Source: Immundisolibacter sp.
GTDB lineage: Bacteria; Pseudomonadota; Gammaproteobacteria; Immundisolibacterales; Immundisolibacteraceae
Assembly: GCF_014359565.1 (NCBI RefSeq)
Contig: NZ_JACIZD010000010.1
Span: forward strand, 1 to 64,000
Length of the DNA stretch: 64,000 bases
Reading direction: 5' to 3'
The notes below the pieces were generated by a model. It had not been told where the DNA came from and ran no database searches. It saw only the letters and a program-made list of their open reading frames with translations. The translations under genes and the position numbers were made by a program. Positions 2,347 to 12,311 of this stretch are shown piece by piece. The first letter of the stretch is position 1, and each line of letters starts with the position of its first letter.

Positions 2347-2943
2347 ATGACCATAGCCGTTGCCGTGCGCAAGGGTGGCGAAATCGTGATCGCCGCCGAC
2401 ACGCAGAACAATTTCGGCCACAACCGGGCGCCGATTGCCAACCACCGCACGCAGAAAATCCTGACCGTGGGCGGCAATCACCTGGCCACCAGCGGCTGGG
2501 GGCTGTACGCGAACATCCTGGACGATTTCCTGGCCCGCAAGCGGGCGCCCAAGCTCGACACCGAGCGCGACGTGTTCCGGTTTTTCCAGACCTTCTGGAA
2601 GGCGCTGCACGAGCACTATTCGCTGGTCAACGATCAGTGCCAGCACGAGGAGGAGCGCTCGCCGTTCGGTGACCTCGACGCCTCGTTCCTGCTGGTCAAC
2701 GGCGGCGGCATCTTTTTCGTGTCGTCCGACACCAGCGTGACGGCCTTCGAGCAGTACTACGCGGTCGGCTCCGGGGCGGAGTTTGCGCTGGGGGCGCTGC
2801 ATGCCCTGTACGACTGCGACCTGGATGCCGAGACGCTGGCCCGGCGCGCCTGCGCCGCAGCCATGGCCTTCAACGTCTACTGCGGCGGGGACATCGACGT
2901 GTGCCGGATCACGGACACCGCCGCCGCTGCCCGGGTGCCGTGA
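2347..2943 (+). CDS. HslV-like Ntn-hydrolase (proteasome beta-subunit fold)
   Basis: The 198-residue product begins MTIAVAVRKGGEIVIAADTQ, which parallels the start of HslV. After Met removal Thr1 would be the N-terminal nucleophile. Asp17 and a Lys near position 36 fall close to the HslV catalytic Asp17 and Lys33. The chain is longer than HslV (about 175 residues) and no HslU ATPase is nearby, so it is probably not HslV itself. ATPase-independent bacterial proteasome relatives such as Anbu or the betaproteobacterial homologue BPH are the nearest comparisons I can offer. I chose the ATG at 2347 because it puts Thr at position 2. The stop codon overlaps the GTG start of the next gene, so the two are translated together. 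Substrates are unknown. Confidence 0.75.
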   Translation: MTIAVAVRKGGEIVIAADTQNNFGHNRAPIANHRTQKILTVGGNHLATSGWGLYANILDDFLARKRAPKLDTERDVFRFFQTFWKALHEHYSLVNDQCQHEEERSPFGDLDASFLLVNGGGIFFVSSDTSVTAFEQYYAVGSGAEFALGALHALYDCDLDAETLARRACAAAMAFNVYCGGDIDVCRITDTAAAARVP

Positions 2944-4373
2944 ACGGGGCTGATCGGGCAGGTCTTCTGGCGCGCCTGGCGGTCACGCCGGGCTGCGACT
3001 GGCGCACCGATGCCGATGCCATGGCGCCGTACCTGGCCGAGCAGCGCGGCCTGTACCGCGGCGCGGCGCTGGCGGTAGCGCTGCCGCAGGACACCGCGGC
3101 CGTGTCGGCACTGGTGCGGGCCTGCGCGCGGTTCGATCTGGCGCTGGTGCCGCAGGGCGGCAATACCGGCCTGTGCGGTGGCGCTGTGGCGCAGGACGCG
3201 GCGCGGCAGGTGGTCGTCAGCCTGGAGCGTCTGGACCGGATCAGGGCTATCGATGCGGCCAATTTCACCCTCACGGCGGAGGCCGGCTGCATCGTGCAAC
3301 GGGTGCGGGAGGCGGCGGCTGACGAAAATCGACTCTTTCCGCTCAGCTTCGGCGCCGACGCCAGCGCCCGCCTGGGCGGGGCGCTGAGCACCAACGCCGG
3401 CGGCACCAACGTGCTGCGCTACGGCAACGCGCGCGAGCTGACGCTGGGCCTGGAGGTGGTGCTGGCCGACGGGCAGGTGTGGGACGGCCTCACGGCGCTG
3501 CGCAAGGACAACACCGGCTACGACCTGAAGCAGCTGTTCATCGGCGCCGAGGGCACGCTGGGCATCATCACCGCGGCGGTGGTCAAGCTGTTTCCGCTGC
3601 CGCGCGAGACGGTCACCGCCTGGCTGGCCTGCCCGTCGGTGGAGGCCTGCGTGGCGGTTTTCGGCCGGCTGCGGGACGCCAGCGGCGACGCCGTGACGGG
3701 CTGTGAGCTGCTGTCGCGCACGGCGCTCGAGTTCGTGCTGCGCCACCTGCCGGGCGCGCGCGATCCGCTGGGTGCCCCGGCGCCCTGGTATCTGCTGGTG
3801 GAACTGACCAGCTCCAGCGCTAGTGCCGGATTGGCGACGGCGCTCGAAAGCGTGCTCGAACAGTGCCTCGGCAGCGGCGAGATCAGCGACGCCGCCGTGG
3901 CTGCCAGTGCGCGCCAGGCGGCGGACTTCTGGCGCCTGCGCGAGGGCGTGGCCGAGGTGCAGCGCCACGAGGGCGCCAGCATCAAGAACGACGTGGCGGT
4001 GCCGGTGTCGGCGGTGCCGGCCTTCGTTGCCGAGGCCAGTGCGGCGGTGCAGGCCGCCTGTCCGGGGCTGCGCGTGTGCGCCTTCGGCCACATCGGCGAC
4101 GGCAACCTGCATTTCAACCTGTCGCAGCCGGTGGACATGCCGGCCGGACAGTTCCTTGCGCAGTGGGACACCCTGAGCGGCCTGGTCAATGCCGTGGTTG
4201 CCCGGCATCGCGGTTCCATCTCGGCCGAGCACGGCATCGGCCTGCTCAAGCGGGATGCGCTGGCGCAGCATGAATCGGCCGTGGCCATCGATCTGATGCG
4301 TCGCGTCAAGGCGGCTCTGGACCCACAGGGCCGTCTGAATCCGGGCAAGCTGCTGCCGCCGACGCAGGAGTGA
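2940..4373 (+). CDS. FAD-linked 2-hydroxyacid dehydrogenase (GlcD / D-2-hydroxyglutarate dehydrogenase family)
   Basis: The 477-residue protein would oxidise a D-2-hydroxyacid to the 2-oxoacid with bound FAD. The PCMH-type FAD domain covers about residues 40-215, with the pyrophosphate-binding loop VPQGGNTGLCGG and the STNAGGTNVLRYGNARE segment typical of the GlcD/D2HGDH group. The C-terminal FAD-oxidase domain contains the metal-site motifs GHIGDGNLHFN and SAEHGIGLLK. The start is GTG at 2940, which overlaps the upstream Ntn-hydrolase stop (GTGA), implying translational coupling. No glcE/glcF subunits follow, so it is likely a stand-alone D2HGDH-like or D-lactate-type enzyme. The exact substrate cannot be read from the sequence. 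Confidence 0.88.
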   Translation: MNGADRAGLLARLAVTPGCDWRTDADAMAPYLAEQRGLYRGAALAVALPQDTAAVSALVRACARFDLALVPQGGNTGLCGGAVAQDAARQVVVSLERLDRIRAIDAANFTLTAEAGCIVQRVREAAADENRLFPLSFGADASARLGGALSTNAGGTNVLRYGNARELTLGLEVVLADGQVWDGLTALRKDNTGYDLKQLFIGAEGTLGIITAAVVKLFPLPRETVTAWLACPSVEACVAVFGRLRDASGDAVTGCELLSRTALEFVLRHLPGARDPLGAPAPWYLLVELTSSSASAGLATALESVLEQCLGSGEISDAAVAASARQAADFWRLREGVAEVQRHEGASIKNDVAVPVSAVPAFVAEASAAVQAACPGLRVCAFGHIGDGNLHFNLSQPVDMPAGQFLAQWDTLSGLVNAVVARHRGSISAEHGIGLLKRDALAQHESAVAIDLMRRVKAALDPQGRLNPGKLLPPTQE

Positions 4374-4432: not shown

Positions 4433-4517
4433 GGCCCATCCCGGCGCGGCCACGTTAGGCTGTGGCCCGTTTACCAAAACACCGTCCAGTGGACGCACAA
4501 CAAGAGGAGTTCCGCCG

Positions 4518-4958
4518 ATGCAAACCGCACGCAGATTTGTGAGCCCGTTTCGCGCCGCTGCCATGGCTGCCACGGGCATGATCGCCATACTGTCCGCCGC
4601 CAGTGCGCCGGTCCTGGCGGCGACCGATGGCACCCAGCAGCAGGCCAGACGCGACTACCAGAAATATTGCGCGTCCTGTCACGGAGCCGAGGGGCGGGGC
4701 GATGGCCCGGTGGCGCAGGCGATGAAGGCCATGCCTGCCGATCTGACCCTGCTGAGCATGAACAACGACGGCAAGTATCCCGCCGACAAGGTGCGCGAGA
4801 TCATCGACGGCCGCGCCGATGTGAAGGCGCACGGCCCGCGCGCCATGCCGGTGTGGGGCAAGGAGTTTTATGTGTCGGCCGAAGGCGTCGGCCAGCGTCA
4901 GGCCCATGACCGTATCGAAGGGCTGACCGAATACCTGCGGCGCATGCAGAAGCAGTAA
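4518..4958 (+). CDS. Small c-type cytochrome (class I), periplasmic
   Basis: The 146-residue precursor has a twin-basic start, a hydrophobic segment (about residues 12-33) ending ...SAPVLAA, and then a single haem-binding motif CASCH at about residues 51-55. A distal Met ligand is likely in AMPVWGKEF. It is a mono-haem electron carrier exported to the periplasm. The ATG at 4518 follows AGAGGAG. It lies behind an FNR-type box and 72 bases before a second, clearly related cytochrome, sharing CASCHG, GRGDGPVA, REIIDGR-like and MPVWG segments. The redox partner is not encoded nearby. A thiosulfate or nitrogen-oxide role is possible but not supported by the sequence. Confidence 0.88.
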   Translation: MQTARRFVSPFRAAAMAATGMIAILSAASAPVLAATDGTQQQARRDYQKYCASCHGAEGRGDGPVAQAMKAMPADLTLLSMNNDGKYPADKVREIIDGRADVKAHGPRAMPVWGKEFYVSAEGVGQRQAHDRIEGLTEYLRRMQKQ

Positions 4959-5030
4959 TCGGCGTCGCAGCGCCGGCTTGGCGCGGCAGCCGATGGAATG
5001 GCGTTTTTTGAACCCAAGGGAGGGAGTGTC

Positions 5031-5453
5031 GTGTCGGACATCAAGACAAACCGCAAGCGCGTCCGTTTTGTGCTCTCGGCTGCGTTGCCGCTGGTGCTGG
5101 CCAGTGGTGCCACGCTGGCTGCCAGCCAGATCAGTGAAATGCAGCGGGAGGATTTTTTTGCCTACTGCGCATCCTGTCACGGCCCTTCCGGGCGTGGTGA
5201 CGGGCCGGTAGCAAGCGAGCTGAAAAAGCGGCCGACGGATCTGACGCAGCTTGCCAAGAACAACAACGGTAGTTTTCCGTATGCCCGCGTGCGCGCCATC
5301 ATCGACGGTCGCGGTCAGGCGCTCGGCATCCACGGTCCGGCGGAGATGCCCGTGTGGGGCGAACGCTTTGGCCGGGAAAGCGAGACCGACATGCAGGTAC
5401 GGGGAAAAATTCTCAGCATCGTCGATTACCTGGTCAGCATCCAGGAAAAATAG
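5031..5453 (+). CDS. Second small c-type cytochrome, paralogue of the upstream gene
   Basis: The 140-residue precursor starts at GTG 5031, seven or so bases after a strong AGGGAGGGAG ribosome-binding site; the upstream ATG at 4998 has none. A basic N-terminus and hydrophobic stretch (VRFVLSAALPLVLASGATLA) form the signal peptide. The haem motif is CASCHGPSGRGDGPVA and the probable axial Met lies in EMPVWGERFG. Its similarity to the preceding cytochrome over the whole mature region indicates tandem duplication. Both are probably co-transcribed from the FNR-linked promoter and could act as a pair of electron shuttles with different potentials. The gene is convergent with the trehalose operon. 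Confidence 0.87.
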   Translation: MSDIKTNRKRVRFVLSAALPLVLASGATLAASQISEMQREDFFAYCASCHGPSGRGDGPVASELKKRPTDLTQLAKNNNGSFPYARVRAIIDGRGQALGIHGPAEMPVWGERFGRESETDMQVRGKILSIVDYLVSIQEK

Positions 5454-5460
5454 GGCACCA

Positions 5461-5481
5461 GGCCGCCGCGTGCGGGCGGCC
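5461..5481. terminator. GC-rich hairpin between convergent cytochrome and malQ-treY genes
   Basis: GGCCGCC (5461-5467) pairs perfectly with GGCGGCC (5475-5481) around a 7-base loop, 8 bases after the cytochrome stop. There is no T-run, so it may only pause or protect the transcript end. Confidence 0.35.
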
Positions 5482-5610
5482 ACAAGTCGCAGACGCGCTC
5501 AGCGCCTGGCCGTGGGTTGCCCCGCCGCACCGCCGGGAATCCGCGCCGGGGCGGTTAGTGATGTCGATGGAGTCGCCGGGTGACTTCGGTGTTCTCCCCG
5601 GCCAGCAGCG

Positions 5611-8600
5611 TCATGCGGGAACTCCCGGGTCGGTGCATTGGTCGGTGCATTCGAGCAGAGCCAGCGGGAACCCGGCGAGCAGTTCCTCAAGTGACAGCGC
5701 GCCGCCGGCCACCGTTCGGCCGGTGAATACCTCGTGCCAGCTGCGCCCGGCCGGCATGTCCACCCAGGTCTCCGCCCACGCAGCGCCGACCGGCCAGCGC
5801 GTGCCCGTGGCGGTCAGCTCCAGGATCAGCCGGGGCACGATCACGACTACATCGTCGCCGCGCTGGAAGGCCAGCACGCGCGCCGCGTGCGTGCCGTGCA
5901 TGGCGAGCGCACGGTATGCGCCGCCGGCAAGGCTTTCCGCCCGGCGCGCGCGCAGGCCGAGCGCGCGCCGCACAAGCTGCAGCTTGGCCTGGCCGGGGTT
6001 GTCGAGCAGCGCGGCGAGGGTGGCCACCGGCGCCGCCAGGGCGGTGGTGAGCGCGGCGTAATCCACCGGGCGGCGGTTGTCCGGGTCCACCAGCGTCAGG
6101 TGCTCGCCCTCGCTGCCTTGGTAGAGGTCCGGAATGCCCGGCACGGTCAGCGCGAGCAGGCTGTGGGCCAGGGCGTTGACCGTGGCGGCAGGCGCAATGG
6201 TGGCGATGAAACGCGCCAGCGTGTCCAGCAGCGGGCGGCTGAGGTGCGGGTCCAGCGCGCGCCGGATGTAGCGCTCGAGCGCCCCTTCATAGGCAACATC
6301 GGGGCTGGCCCAGCTGGTGCGCTCGCCCGACTCGCGCCCGGCCTTGACCACGTGCGCCAGCAGCCGCGCCAGGTAGGCTTCCCAGTCCATGCCGTCGGGA
6401 GCGCCAGGCCAGGTGCCGACCACGGTCTGGTACAGGTACCACTCGTCGTGTCGGGTGATCTGCGGGCCGGCGGCGCGGCGTGCCGGACCGGCCATGCGCG
6501 TCAGGCGCGACAGGCAGCGCGCCCAGCCGCGTGGGTCCTCGCTGAGCACCGCCAGGCGCGCGCGCACGTCCGCGCTGCGCTTGGTGTCGTGCGTGGTGAC
6601 GGGGCTGAGTGCGTGCGGGTGGCTATGGCCGCGCGCCGCGACCGCGCGGTGAAAGGCATCGGGCGCCAGCGCGCCCTGCGTCGGCTCGGCACCGACCTCG
6701 TTCATCGCCAGCAGCGGCACGTAGCGGTAAAAGGCGGTGTCTTCGATGGCCTTGGCGGCTACCGGCGCGGTGTATTGCTGGAACTTCATCGCCAGTTGCA
6801 CCGTGAGTTCGCGCGGCCAGCGGCGCGCGCCCTCGTGCGGCAGTTCGGCGGCGAGGGCCGCGCGAAGGAACGCGAAGATGCCCGTTTCGGCCAGGCGCCG
6901 GTTGCGCCGCGCGAGTCCCACCGACCAGTCGAGGTGCTGACGATCCGTGTCGGTCGCGCCGGCCGCGGTGACGTAGGTGCGATACACCGGAAAGCCGGCC
7001 ACGATTTCGGTCAGCGCGCGCAGCATCGCGGCGCGCGTGTAATCGCGGCTGGCCGGATTCTGCTCGGCGAGCCGGTCGGCCAGCGTGGCCAGCACGGCCA
7101 GTTCGCCGCCCAGTTCCTCCTCCATCACCTCGCGCCGGCAGGCGCGGGCGATGTCGGCGAAGGCGCGCGGGTCCGCGGTGTAGCGCCGATACAGCCGCGT
7201 GATGGCGGCCAGGCCCGCGCTGTCCACCTGCACGCCGGTGAGCTGCGCGATCAGTTCGTAGCCGGTGGTGCCGGCCACCGGCCAGGTAGGCGGCAGTGCC
7301 TCGTGCGCGGCGAGGATTTTCTCCACCCACAGCCACGGCCGCCCGTGGGTGCCGGGCCCGGCCGCGCGGGTGAGCTGTTCCAGATAGCCGGCCGGGTCGT
7401 ACAGGCCGTCCACATGGTCGATGCGCAGGCCCTGGATGGCGCCGCTGCGCAGCAGTTCCAGCATCCGGGCGTGGGTCGCCTCGAACACCGGCGGGTGCTC
7501 CTGGCGGATGCCGGCGAGTTCGTTGATCTGAAAGAAACGCCGGTAGTTGATCTCGTCCGCCGCCACCTGCCAGAACGCGGGGCGGTAGTGCTGGTGTTCG
7601 ATGAGCCGATGCAGGCGCGCGCGTCCGACGTCGTCCGGACTGGCGTAGGCACCGAGGGCCTGCTCCAGAAGCGCGGCTGCGCCAGCGCCTGTCGAGCACA
7701 TTTCGGTGAGCGTGGCTTTCAGTGCAGTGCCTGCCGCGCGGCTGCGCTGCGGGTCGGTACCCGCGACAGTGCGCGCGCTGCCGGCCAGCGCGTGGAATTG
7801 GCGGGTCAGCTCGTCGTCGCGCGCCCGGCGCGCCAGCGCGGCGGCTCGCTGCAGCAGCGGCCGGTAACTGGCCGGGTGCAGCGGAAAGCGGTGCGGCCCA
7901 TACCACAGGCTGATGCTGCCTTCGTGCGGGTCCAGGCGCAGTTCCAGCGCGCCGGATTCCAGCACCGCGCCGTAGTGGTCGCCCAGAAACGGCAGCAGCA
8001 CGCGCCCGTGCAGTTCCGGCTTGGCCGGATCCCAGTCGATGTCGAAGGCCGGCGCGTGGGGTGAGGCGCGGCCCCACTCGAGCACGTCCAGCCACCACGG
8101 GTTGTCGGCCTGGCCCACGCCCATGTGGTTGGGGACGTGGTCGGCGATGATGCCAAGGCCGTGGCGGCGTGCTGCGGCCACAAGCGCGGCAAAGCCGGCG
8201 TCGCCGCCCAGTTCGGGATTGAGTGAGCCGAAGTCGGCGACGTCGTAGCCGTGCGTGCTGCCGGCCCGCGCGCGGGTGATGGGCGAGGTATAGAGGTGGC
8301 TGATGCCCAGCGCGGCGAGGTAGGGCACCGCGCGCGCGGCGTCGTAGAAACCGAAGCCGGCGTGCAGTTGCAGGCGATAGGTGGCGCGCGGCACCGCGGG
8401 GACCGTCGACGCGGCAGGCGGCGGGCGCTGCGCGGCAATCGCCTGGGCGACGGGCTCGGCGGCCTGCGCGATCTGCGCGATGGACGCCGGCAGGCGCAGT
8501 GTCCAGTTGGAGCACCCGGTGCTGGTGCCCGGCACGTTGACGGGCTCTTGCACGCCCAGTATGTCTTCGGGCTGCACCAGCGTGAGCAGCGCTGGCGTGG

Positions 8601-10506
8601 CGGCAAGGTGCGAATAGACCGACCGCGCAATTTCCGGGCTCGGAGCATGCATCGGCATGTCGGCGAGCGCGCTGATGCGCTCGAGGTCGGCCTCCCGGTC
8701 GGCCTCGTCTTGCGCCTCAAGCTGCGGCGTGGGGTAAAGACCCAACGTGCGCTTGAGGTACTGATCGTGCCCGCTCAGCCAGCCGGCCAGCGGCGGCAAG
8801 TCGTGCGTGGAAATGCCGACCGCGGACAGCGCAGGATAGTCCCCCGGCGCGGCGAAATCGCCCGTGGCACCGCGCTCGAAATAGAACAGACGCGTGGACA
8901 GTACTGCCTCGCGGGCCAGCGTCTCGCGCAGGCCATCCGGCACCGTGCCCAGGTCCTCGCCGACCACCATGCAGTGCGCGCGGTGGCTTTCCAGGGCCAG
9001 CACCGCCAGCAGTTCATCGAGTGGGTAGCGCACGTAGCCGCCGTGCGTGGCCGGCGCGCCGTCCGGCACCCAGAACAGCCGCGCCAGGCCGAGCACGTGG
9101 TCGATGCGCAGCGCGCCGGCGTGGCGCATGTTGGCGCGCAGTTCCGCGGCGAAGGGCTGGTGGCCGAGCGCGCGCGAGCGGCCCGGCAGCGGCGGCGGAA
9201 AGCCCCAGCACTGACCGTTGAGGTTCCAGGCGTCCGGCGGCGCGCCGGTGCCAAAGCCGTGCGCGTACAGCTGCGGCGCGGCCCAGGCCTGGGCACCGGC
9301 ACGGTCCACGCCCACGGCCAGATCCCGGTACAGGCCGACCGGCATGGCGGCGGCGCGTGCGCACTGCGCGGCATCGGCGAGTTGGCAGTCGGCCAGCCAC
9401 TGCAGGTATTGGTGAAAGGACACGCGCCGGGCGTGGCGCGCGGCGAAGGCCGCCACCGCCGGACTGCCTGCATCGCGGTGTTCGCTCGGCCAGTCACGCC
9501 AGTCGGGTGTGCCGGCGGCGGCGTGGAGTTCGCGCAGCGCCTCGAAGGTGGCGAAGCTCCGCAGCGCCGCGCCGCCCTGGTCCGCGAAGGCCCGGAAGGC
9601 GGCAGCACGCACACTGCTCGCTGCCAGCTCGGTGGCTTCGAACGCGTCGTACAGGTGTTCGAAGGCAGCCAGGCGCAGCCGCGCCACGCCGCCGTAATCC
9701 ACGTGCGCGGCGGCGCACAGGCGTTCGAGCGTGCCGTCCGCCTGCGCGGCGTCGAATACCTGCCGGGCCGGTGCGCTGGCGGCGTATTCCGGCACCGCGC
9801 GCGGGTCCACGTACAGCACGTTCAGGTAGGTGCGGCTGGACGGCGCGTACGGGCTTGCCTGCCCCGGCCGGTCGGGAAACAGCGCGTGCAGGGGATTGAT
9901 GCCGACGATGCCGGCGCCCAGCCGCGCGCTGGCCTGCGTGAGTTCGGCCAGCGCCGTGAAATCGCCCATGCCGGTGTCGGCGGCCCCGCGCAGGCCGTAC
10001 AGCTGCGCGGTGAAGCCCCAGGTGCGCTCGCCGAGCGCCAGTGCCGGCGGCAGGTAGCAGCGGGCGGGCGCGACGATCACGGCTGCGCTGGCGTGGCGCC
10101 GGCCGGAACGCACCTCGATGCGGTGATAGCCGTCCGGCAGCACGCCCACTATCAGCACGGCGCCCTGCGCACTGCGCGGTAGCTCCGCGCTGGCAAAACC
10201 GCCCTCGCGTACGCTGCCGTCCTCGAGTTGCAGCCGCCATTGGCCGCGCCCGCCGAGCACGCCGCCCAGCACCACGCGCAGCGGCGCGCCGGCACGCGCC
10301 ACGCTCACGGCCGGCAGCAGGGGTGGGTTGTTTTGTAGGTTCGCCAGCGTGCGCGCGGCGCTGGCGTCATCGGCAGCGGGCAGCTCGAGCGCGCCGAGCA
10401 GGGCGCGCACGGTCGATTCGGGCACGTCCACATGCCGGCCCCACGGGTTGGTGTAACCGGCTTCGATACCGGCCGCGCGCGCCAGCTGCGCCAGGGCCGG
10501 GTTCAA
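5611..10506 (-). CDS. MalQ-TreY fusion: 4-alpha-glucanotransferase plus malto-oligosyltrehalose synthase
   Basis: The 1631-residue protein joins two GH enzymes. Residues about 1-690 are a GH77 4-alpha-glucanotransferase: nucleophile D469 in ALRIDHVLG, acid/base in VVGEDLGTVP, and ISTHDLPPLAG. Residues about 710-1631 are a GH13 TreY: STHGYDVADF, GIIADHVPNHMG, nucleophile D1030 in GLRIDHVDG, acid/base in WVEKILAA, and VTTHDTKRSADVRAR. TreY turns the reducing end of maltodextrins into a trehalosyl end; MalQ would resize maltodextrins to feed it. The start is probably TTG at 10506, overlapping the treZ stop as TTGA; an ATG at 10572 would give a 66-base overlap and a tail unlike MalQ. It is the last gene of the glucan operon. 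Confidence 0.88.
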   Translation of the reverse strand: MNPALAQLARAAGIEAGYTNPWGRHVDVPESTVRALLGALELPAADDASAARTLANLQNNPPLLPAVSVARAGAPLRVVLGGVLGGRGQWRLQLEDGSVREGGFASAELPRSAQGAVLIVGVLPDGYHRIEVRSGRRHASAAVIVAPARCYLPPALALGERTWGFTAQLYGLRGAADTGMGDFTALAELTQASARLGAGIVGINPLHALFPDRPGQASPYAPSSRTYLNVLYVDPRAVPEYAASAPARQVFDAAQADGTLERLCAAAHVDYGGVARLRLAAFEHLYDAFEATELAASSVRAAAFRAFADQGGAALRSFATFEALRELHAAAGTPDWRDWPSEHRDAGSPAVAAFAARHARRVSFHQYLQWLADCQLADAAQCARAAAMPVGLYRDLAVGVDRAGAQAWAAPQLYAHGFGTGAPPDAWNLNGQCWGFPPPLPGRSRALGHQPFAAELRANMRHAGALRIDHVLGLARLFWVPDGAPATHGGYVRYPLDELLAVLALESHRAHCMVVGEDLGTVPDGLRETLAREAVLSTRLFYFERGATGDFAAPGDYPALSAVGISTHDLPPLAGWLSGHDQYLKRTLGLYPTPQLEAQDEADREADLERISALADMPMHAPSPEIARSVYSHLAATPALLTLVQPEDILGVQEPVNVPGTSTGCSNWTLRLPASIAQIAQAAEPVAQAIAAQRPPPAASTVPAVPRATYRLQLHAGFGFYDAARAVPYLAALGISHLYTSPITRARAGSTHGYDVADFGSLNPELGGDAGFAALVAAARRHGLGIIADHVPNHMGVGQADNPWWLDVLEWGRASPHAPAFDIDWDPAKPELHGRVLLPFLGDHYGAVLESGALELRLDPHEGSISLWYGPHRFPLHPASYRPLLQRAAALARRARDDELTRQFHALAGSARTVAGTDPQRSRAAGTALKATLTEMCSTGAGAAALLEQALGAYASPDDVGRARLHRLIEHQHYRPAFWQVAADEINYRRFFQINELAGIRQEHPPVFEATHARMLELLRSGAIQGLRIDHVDGLYDPAGYLEQLTRAAGPGTHGRPWLWVEKILAAHEALPPTWPVAGTTGYELIAQLTGVQVDSAGLAAITRLYRRYTADPRAFADIARACRREVMEEELGGELAVLATLADRLAEQNPASRDYTRAAMLRALTEIVAGFPVYRTYVTAAGATDTDRQHLDWSVGLARRNRRLAETGIFAFLRAALAAELPHEGARRWPRELTVQLAMKFQQYTAPVAAKAIEDTAFYRYVPLLAMNEVGAEPTQGALAPDAFHRAVAARGHSHPHALSPVTTHDTKRSADVRARLAVLSEDPRGWARCLSRLTRMAGPARRAAGPQITRHDEWYLYQTVVGTWPGAPDGMDWEAYLARLLAHVVKAGRESGERTSWASPDVAYEGALERYIRRALDPHLSRPLLDTLARFIATIAPAATVNALAHSLLALTVPGIPDLYQGSEGEHLTLVDPDNRRPVDYAALTTALAAPVATLAALLDNPGQAKLQLVRRALGLRARRAESLAGGAYRALAMHGTHAARVLAFQRGDDVVVIVPRLILELTATGTRWPVGAAWAETWVDMPAGRSWHEVFTGRTVAGGALSLEELLAGFPLALLECTDQCTDPGVPA

Positions 10507-12311
10507 GTGCCGTCCGTCAGCCAGAAGGCTGCGCTCCACGGTTCGGGTTGCACGGTTCCGGCTTGTTCGCACAGCGCCCCGGTGCAGCGCAGCAGCGTGC
10601 CCGGCGGGCGGGGCAGGACGGCCGTGGAGCCGGGGGTGGCCAGCAGCGCCGTCAGCACGCGGCCGTGCGCGAGCTTCCAGCGCACCCGCAGCACGGCCGG
10701 CTCGGGCAGTTCGAAATCGCCGGCGCCACCGTCGGCACTAGCCAGCAGGGGGGTGATCACGCGGGCCCGCAGCGCGAGCAGGCCGGCGTAAAACGCCAGC
10801 CAGTCGCGGCCTTCCGGCGCTGCGCGCGCGCCGTGATCCAGGCGTGAGGCGGCGAAGGTTGACGCGGCGGTGGGGTCCGGAATGCGTGCGCGCGCCGCCG
10901 GGTCCGCAAAGGCCGGAAAAGCGGCGAACTCGCGTCGCCGCCCGTCGCGCACCGCATCGCGCAGCTGCGGCCCAAGGTCGCAGAAAAACAGGAACGGCTC
11001 GCGCGCGCCCCATTCCTCGCCCATGAACAGCATGGGGATGTGCGGGGCCAGCACGAGCATCGTCGCCAGTGCGCGCAGCGCGCGCGGCTCGGCCAGGGTG
11101 GTGAGGCGTTCGCCCAGCGCCCGGTTGCCGATCTGGTCGTGGTTCTGCAAAAAGGCGACGAAGCGAGTCGGCGGCAGGTGCGCGCTGGGTTCCCCGCGCG
11201 GCGCGTTGCGAAACGGCGATTGTTCGCCCTGCCAGGCAAAGCCCTGCGCCAGGCAGCGTCCCAGATGCGCCAGCGGCCAGTCGGCGTAGTCGGCGTAATA
11301 GCCGTGCATCTCGCCGGTGAGCAGCACATGCGCGCCGTGGTGCCAGTCGTCGCTCCACTGCGCGTCGTAGCCGCCGGGGGCGGCGCCCAGAAAGCGCGCC
11401 TGGTTGGCGTCGTTTTCCAGCACCAGGTGCACGTGCCGCCCGGCACATTGCGCACGGGCGCGCTGGGCGAGTTCATCCAGCACATGCACCGCCGAGTCGT
11501 CGCGGACGGCATGCACGGCATCCAGGCGCAGGCCGTCGAAGTGGTACTCGGTTAGCCAATACAGTGCGTTGTGGATGAAGAACTCGCGCACCGCGGCGTT
11601 GTGCGGCCCGTCGAAGTTGATGGCCGCGCCCCACGGCGTGTGATGGGCGGGGTTGAAGAACTCCGGGGCGTAGGCGTGCAGGTAGTTCCCCTCCGGGCCG
11701 AAGTGGTTGTAGACCACGTCCAGAAACACCATCAGGCGGTGGCCGTGGGCGGCGTCGATCAGGGCCTTGATGTCGTCCGGACTGCCGTAGCGGGAATGGG
11801 GCGCAAACGGCAGCACGCCGTCGTAGCCCCAGCCGCGCGCGCCGGGAAAATCCGCCACCGGCATCAGCTCGATGGCCGTCACGCCCAGCGCGGCGAGCTC
11901 GGGCAGGTGCGCGATCAGGGCCCGAAAGGTGCCGTCCGCGGTGTAGGTGCCGACGTGCAGTTCGTAAACCACTGCCTCGTGCCAGGGCCGGCCGCGCCAG
12001 GCGCCGTCCTGCCAGGGATGGCCGGCGGGGTCCACCACCGCACTGGGGCCGTGCACGCCGTCCGGCTGAAAGCGCGAGGCCGGGTCCGGCACGGTCAGCC
12101 CATCCACCTCGAAGCGGTAGCGGGCGCCGGCCGTCACGCCGGGCACATGGTCGTGCCAGTAGCCGTTCTCGTCGCGCGCCATGGGGTGGGCGCGCAGCCC
12201 TTCAACGTGCAGGCTCACCTCGCGCGCCGAGGGCGCCCACAGCCGGAACGCGACGCCGTCCGGCTCGACCTGCGCCCCGAAGGGCATGTGGTGCACGTGC
12301 GTCCTGGTCAT
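10503..12311 (-). CDS. treZ: Malto-oligosyltrehalose trehalohydrolase
   Basis: The 602-residue GH13 enzyme releases trehalose from the maltooligosyltrehalose made by TreY. An N-terminal E-set domain (PFGAQVEPDGVAFRLWAP) precedes the barrel. Catalytic residues are D264 (GLRLDAVHAV), E299 (LVLENDAN) and the Asp of LQNHDQIGNRALGERL. The TreZ hallmarks YELHVGTYTADGTF and NHFGPEGNYL are present. Length is normal for the family. The ATG at 12311 overlaps the glgX stop (ATGA), and its own stop overlaps the probable TTG start of malQ-treY, so the three genes are translationally coupled. Together with TreY it forms the glucan-to-trehalose arm of the locus. Confidence 0.93.
   Translation of the reverse strand: MTRTHVHHMPFGAQVEPDGVAFRLWAPSAREVSLHVEGLRAHPMARDENGYWHDHVPGVTAGARYRFEVDGLTVPDPASRFQPDGVHGPSAVVDPAGHPWQDGAWRGRPWHEAVVYELHVGTYTADGTFRALIAHLPELAALGVTAIELMPVADFPGARGWGYDGVLPFAPHSRYGSPDDIKALIDAAHGHRLMVFLDVVYNHFGPEGNYLHAYAPEFFNPAHHTPWGAAINFDGPHNAAVREFFIHNALYWLTEYHFDGLRLDAVHAVRDDSAVHVLDELAQRARAQCAGRHVHLVLENDANQARFLGAAPGGYDAQWSDDWHHGAHVLLTGEMHGYYADYADWPLAHLGRCLAQGFAWQGEQSPFRNAPRGEPSAHLPPTRFVAFLQNHDQIGNRALGERLTTLAEPRALRALATMLVLAPHIPMLFMGEEWGAREPFLFFCDLGPQLRDAVRDGRRREFAAFPAFADPAARARIPDPTAASTFAASRLDHGARAAPEGRDWLAFYAGLLALRARVITPLLASADGGAGDFELPEPAVLRVRWKLAHGRVLTALLATPGSTAVLPRPPGTLLRCTGALCEQAGTVQPEPWSAAFWLTDGT

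Follow-up and report, generated by a model that had tools for sequence, protein, structure and literature searches.

The gene at positions 2347 to 2943 on the forward strand of the window, the 64,000-nucleotide stretch of DNA that we analysed, encodes a BPH-family proteasome-like Ntn-hydrolase (bph, 198 aa). Its coupling to a downstream dehydrogenase gene is real but restricted to one genus in the loci examined. We put a probability of about 0.82 on the product being a BPH protease subunit whose pairing with the dehydrogenase reflects operon placement at the genus level, as seen in two genomes of the window's genus, and not a protease and its substrate. BPH, the Betaproteobacteria proteasome homologue (PMC5777263), is a structurally solved proteasome relative without a known substrate or partner. 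It is a known but poorly understood family that repeatedly settles inside different metabolic operons.

The window protein is a BPH and not an HslV

The original prediction described an HslV-like Ntn-hydrolase with Thr2, Asp and Lys at HslV-like positions. These residues are present (Thr2, Asp18 and Lys37) and the protein is of the proteasome type, with a match to PF00227 above the cut-off, but its family is BPH and not an unplaced HslV-like one. In a phmmer search against the PDB, the top matches were BPH structures (5ovu, 6.9e-26; 5ovs, 4.4e-24), with the best proteasome beta subunit at 3.4e-6 and the best HslV (4hnz) at 1e-3. A comparison of the predicted structure with HslV and BPH, which had been suggested as a check, gave the same answer. 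The AlphaFold2 model (pLDDT 85.8, pTM 0.84, 20 sequences) was nearer to BPH in Foldseek, where ranks 1-6 were all BPH (5ovs: TM 0.83, rmsd 2.4) and the best-ranked HslV (1g3i) reached TM 0.66. The protein scored 36.7 bits against the NCBIfam HslV model, which has a cut-off of 157.75, and fell far under the cut-off of the proteasome-beta model. Elsewhere in the same genome, on another contig, a canonical hslV (C4:144275-144787) adjoins hslU (C4:142910-144235). Because of the PDB and fold matches, the scores below the HslV and proteasome-beta cut-offs, and the separate hslV-hslU pair, we assign the protein to the named BPH family, two members of which have solved structures, and reject an orphan HslV.

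The protein is 33-34% identical to the BPHs of Thiobacillus denitrificans and Cupriavidus metallidurans (5ovs, 5ovt and 5ovu; TM 0.79-0.84 on the query). It shares with them the catalytic residues, the lack of a propeptide, the lack of an adjoining ATPase and a place in a metabolic operon, but it belongs to a separate clade (support 100/100) and its operon partner is a D2HGDH-like enzyme in place of argG, PDC or hsp33. With HslV it shares the Thr1-Asp-Lys set, a similar size and the proteasome-beta fold, whereas its operon lacks hslU. The group I proteasome-like homologues AAH, CPH and PPH, which radiate from the BPH cluster according to the accessible text of PMC8665760, are related to the window protein by that published description and not by side-by-side comparison of sequences. 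A viral scan returned 32 loci encoding related phage homologues that are 25-33% identical to the window BPH.

Catalytic residues, pore loop and clade

The window BPH carries Thr2 (Thr1 after Met removal), Asp18, Lys37, Gly50 and Ser142. It falls within a clade of 20 named loci (45-56% identity to the window BPH; support 100/100 in the careful tree) from gammaproteobacteria, Myxococcota, Planctomycetota and 'UASB270'. The careful tree excluded L008 and L033, which have long branches, and both trees excluded L005, L018 and L019, which are copies of L075, L058 and L069. In the quick tree, L008 stood beside the window clade on a very long branch.

In the alignments, the common features of the clade were W51, Y54, H88, a Cys179-Gly pair and a loop signature, NDQ...SPFGDLD with small variations, that stands where other BPHs have their long stretch of Asp and Glu. 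Cys179 was invariant among the aligned clade members. We rejected pore-loop Cys98 as an invariant residue; it held in five sequences and failed across the full clade. The pore loop of the window BPH (residues 92-112, positions 2620 to 2682, + strand; SLVNDQCQHEEERSPFGDLDA) has 21 residues, six of them acidic, and a longest acidic run of 3. The longest run averaged 1.64 in the window clade (22 proteins) versus 3.79 in the other BPHs (48 proteins, with runs of up to 5), while total acidity was alike (4.91 and 5.46 acidic residues, respectively). The clade's loop has no long acidic run and therefore its substrates may differ from those of other BPHs. Model confidence was low in this region, with a mean pLDDT of 61 for block 91-100 and 56 for block 101-110.

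The nucleophile of the clade is Ser in 20 of 22 proteins and Thr only in the window's genus, which corresponds to a single Ser-to-Thr change on the tree. According to the available text of PMC5777263, the nucleophile is Ser in every BPH from outside Betaproteobacteria. Loci from the order of genome G703 carry the published betaproteobacterial BPH contexts. The window genome is probably an exception to the Ser-only rule because it is not shown to lie within that order.

We asked whether the protein might not be a protease at all but an amidohydrolase or a ligase built on a proteasome scaffold in the manner of connectase, or a binding shell. The accessible text of PMC5777263, which gives no activity for BPH, reports that neither Cm-BPH nor Td-BPH acted on standard peptides or casein, in favour of such a reading. 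Four Planctomycetota clade members (L071-L074) have Cys or Trp at the equivalent of Ser142, and these are possibly inactive or altered enzymes. Set against this, Asp18, Lys37 and Gly50 were kept in all 70 BPH proteins compared, position 2 was Ser or Thr in every one of them, and epoxomicin modifies Thr1 of BPH (PMC5777263). Considering both sides, we regard a role other than proteolysis as unlikely.

The gene pair in the window

The bph reading frame opens with an ATG immediately before the Thr codon (N-terminus MTIAVAVRKGG...). Translation is unlikely to start at the TTG further upstream (2317) because homologues start at the ATG. Downstream lies a gene for a D2HGDH-like FAD-linked 2-hydroxyacid dehydrogenase (positions 2940 to 4373, + strand; 477 aa) that starts with GTG and encodes FAD_binding_4 (PF01565) and FAD-oxidase_C (PF02913) domains. 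Its product matched 3pm9 (2.9e-139), human D2HGDH 6lpn (1.9e-89) and D-lactate dehydrogenase (7.6e-51), so that by sequence D2HGDH is its closest relative among named enzymes. The match to D-2-hydroxyglutarate dehydrogenase (6lpn and 3pm9) is almost full-length. One difference from that enzyme is that the window gene is followed by two genes for small c-type cytochromes, at 4518 to 4958 (+ strand; PF13442, 2.6e-07) and at 4998 to 5453 (+ strand; PF13442, 4.9e-05, under the family cut-off). Upstream, bph is divergent from a gene for a metallo-beta-lactamase-fold hydrolase (positions 1634 to 2260, - strand; PF00753, 2.6e-08), and the stretch between the two genes is likely the promoter region. 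A scan of the window against Rfam gave no match.

As originally described, the bph stop codon overlaps the GTG start of the flavoprotein gene: TGA (2941-2943) and GTG (2940-2942) share four nucleotides, GTGA. The same overlap occurs in G002, the only further genome of the genus that is complete, where BPH is 98% and the dehydrogenase 96% identical to the window proteins. In a third genome of the genus (G001) a contig end cuts through the dehydrogenase gene, which leaves the pairing out of view. Four-nucleotide overlaps were found in 4 of 25 co-directional neighbour pairs in the window. This base rate is approximate: the gene call behind it is a rough, composition-based one, and one or more of its ORFs are probably spurious, such as the one at 4455-5483 (- strand) that lies across the cytochrome genes. 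Since such overlaps are frequent in the window, the overlap alone tells little beyond co-expression, and we rejected it as special evidence for a link between bph and the dehydrogenase.

In the loci surveyed, the pairing is confined to one genus

To this point the pair could represent a functional unit in which BPH takes the dehydrogenase, or a damaged form of it, as a substrate for processing or degradation, or in which both handle a shared substrate, as the original prediction proposed. In favour of this idea, the overlap is preserved wherever the junction can be read in the genus, in two genomes, and the pair forms its own short + strand unit, divergent from the gene upstream. A conserved neighbourhood across genera was the criterion set beforehand, and we surveyed BPH loci accordingly. 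In the class survey, 44 of 369 genomes had a BPH (E-value of 1e-12 or lower), and all 44 loci were inspected. The phylum survey found it in 12 of 398 genomes, 9 of them new, and named genomes added 20 loci. Within the order of G703, BPH was present in 115 of 300 genomes at 117 places, of which we inspected 50 (20 picked to spread over families), plus four from the phylum survey. In total, 123 loci were tested, corresponding to 118 distinct loci after subtracting five repeats (L005/L075, L018/L058, L019/L069, L043/L146 and L048/L154). Flanks of approximately 1.5-2 kb were tested per locus, extended to 6 kb in most of those from named genomes, and some stopped at contig ends.

The dehydrogenase adjoined BPH in 2 of the 118 distinct loci, the window and G002, and a conserved BPH-dehydrogenase unit was rejected as a general feature. 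Orthologues of the dehydrogenase in the sister genus, which is of the same family (50-53% identical; G003, G004 and G005) have no BPH beside them. In G004 and G005 the genes ahead of the orthologue resemble exbB/exbD by eye. In addition, Cm-BPH pulldowns recovered no partner, operon-mates and HslU included, according to the available text of PMC5777263. The functional-unit reading fails because the pair is restricted to one genus in the survey, and together with the sister-genus orthologues that lack BPH, the pulldowns and the commonness of such overlaps this makes it very unlikely that either partner acts on the other or on a shared substrate. The coupling itself matters little because it is seen in one genus only.

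Operon contexts across the BPH family

Across the loci inspected, the operon placement of BPH varied between BPH clades and was stable within each. Three published contexts (argG, PDC and hsp33) were used in the gene-context partner search. Among the 50 loci from the order of G703, hsp33 stood beside BPH in 20, argG in 12 and PDC (aceF-BPH-lpd) in 4, leaving 14 loci without any reference gene beside it. Ten of these 14 were listed, and by eye a gene for an S4-domain Hsp15-like protein adjoins BPH in five of the ten; Pfam confirmed the S4 domain in two loci. Two genomes had two BPH copies, namely G890 and G853, in the latter of which one copy (L180) is beside argG and the other (L181) is not.

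The commonest context in the class survey was nrdR-ribD-BPH-ribE-ribBA, found in 29 of 44 BPH genomes from 13 family codes. Some of these loci hold fewer than all five genes, and the upstream side of L034 is cut by a contig end. The identities of ribD, ribE and ribBA were checked with Pfam on L024. The remaining 15 genomes comprised 2 with D2HGDH (the window's genus), 3 with a PF10023 aminopeptidase, 3 with GDPD, 2 in which nrdR was the sole tested gene present and 5 singles. Operon contexts fit the BPH tree with a minimum of 5 changes. The rib loci lie on one side of a branch (99/94), and the PDC loci likewise (100/99).

In ten Planctomycetota loci, a SIS+CBS gene (kdsD-like) was upstream of BPH in 9 and a HAD gene (kdsC-like) downstream in 8, with both in 7. 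The BPHs beside them (L061, L063-L066, L068 and L071-L074) are of the window clade, and an LptA/LptD_N-like protein comes next in eight of these loci, one representative of which gave a weak Pfam match. In the gammaproteobacterial clade loci L005/L075, L019/L069, L057 and L018/L058, a gene for a PF10023 putative aminopeptidase follows BPH, and mnmE precedes it in three of the four. The aminopeptidase of L075 has a lipobox-like N-terminus.

To the three published operon types, our survey adds ribD-BPH-ribE, which is very stable, and the Planctomycetota arrangement of kdsD-like gene, BPH and kdsC-like gene. It also delimits a clade whose pore loop differs and in which the nucleophile changed from Ser to Thr in the window's genus. 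Neither context was found in the available text of PMC5777263 and PMC8665760, and a literature search on proteasome homologues in riboflavin operons yielded one paper, which concerns nickel resistance. The words riboflavin, ribD and flavin are absent from the main text of the former, and the latter gives, in its accessible parts, no telling gene contexts for its new homologues. The rib context may nonetheless have been noticed in earlier work. Together, the rib and kds contexts and this clade provide concrete candidates for a BPH substrate search.

The gene immediately after BPH encodes riboflavin synthase in the rib operon of gammaproteobacteria, the FAD-containing E3 in the PDC operon of the beta type and an FAD dehydrogenase in the window. 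This pattern would suit an operon-resident quality-control protease that has changed partners from lineage to lineage and prefers enzymes that handle flavins, with apo- or photo- or oxidatively damaged flavoproteins of its own operon as substrates. Flavin genes made up 3 of approximately 17 kinds of downstream neighbour by hand count (p ~ 0.02, post hoc and uncorrected), given that they account for at most 3.5% of genes. The kdsD/kdsC, argG, hsp33 and aminopeptidase contexts run against a preference for flavin enzymes, which we consider a long shot.

Proposed mode of action

Under our preferred reading of a BPH protease subunit placed in a metabolic operon, bph and the dehydrogenase would most likely share one short transcript, on which ribosomes translate BPH and then re-initiate at the dehydrogenase. 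This placement would most likely put BPH expression under the control of a housekeeping metabolic promoter. Removal of Met would, by homology, leave Thr1 as the nucleophile acting with Asp17 and Lys36. Published BPH forms a closed double ring with an epoxomicin-reactive Thr1 and no known unfoldase, as described in the available text of PMC5777263. By analogy with the solved BPHs, we infer ring assembly and proteolytic activity for the window protein, which would form a closed homo-oligomeric double ring, heptameric as is characteristic of BPH, with its active sites inside. Entry would be governed by the pore loop with no ATPase involved, and the ring would act independently, without ATP, on peptides or unfolded proteins.

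The absence of HslU or another ATPase partner near bph, as originally noted, held up: among the neighbour genes scanned, which are part of the window's genes, there was no AAA+ unfoldase, and the ATPase-type genes were a ResIII/DEAD-helicase ORF (388-1344, - strand) and an SMC protein 40 kb off. A second HslV borrowing the genome's HslU would fit the descent of BPH from HslV (available text of PMC5777263) but is scarcely credible, as the hslU gene already adjoins the canonical hslV, HslU was absent from the Cm-BPH pulldowns in that text, and the window protein is far from HslV in sequence and set apart from it in trees.

Two further features of the window are of note. Positions 5611 to 10572 (- strand) encode a 1653-aa fusion of a MalQ-type 4-alpha-glucanotransferase to an alpha-amylase-family domain that by eye is a maltooligosyltrehalose synthase, in the setting of a glucan/trehalose gene cluster. 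Within positions 40 to 1344, a short ORF resembles the end of an IS30-type transposase by eye (no match in Pfam), and the adjoining ResIII/DEAD-helicase ORF may be a truncated restriction subunit.
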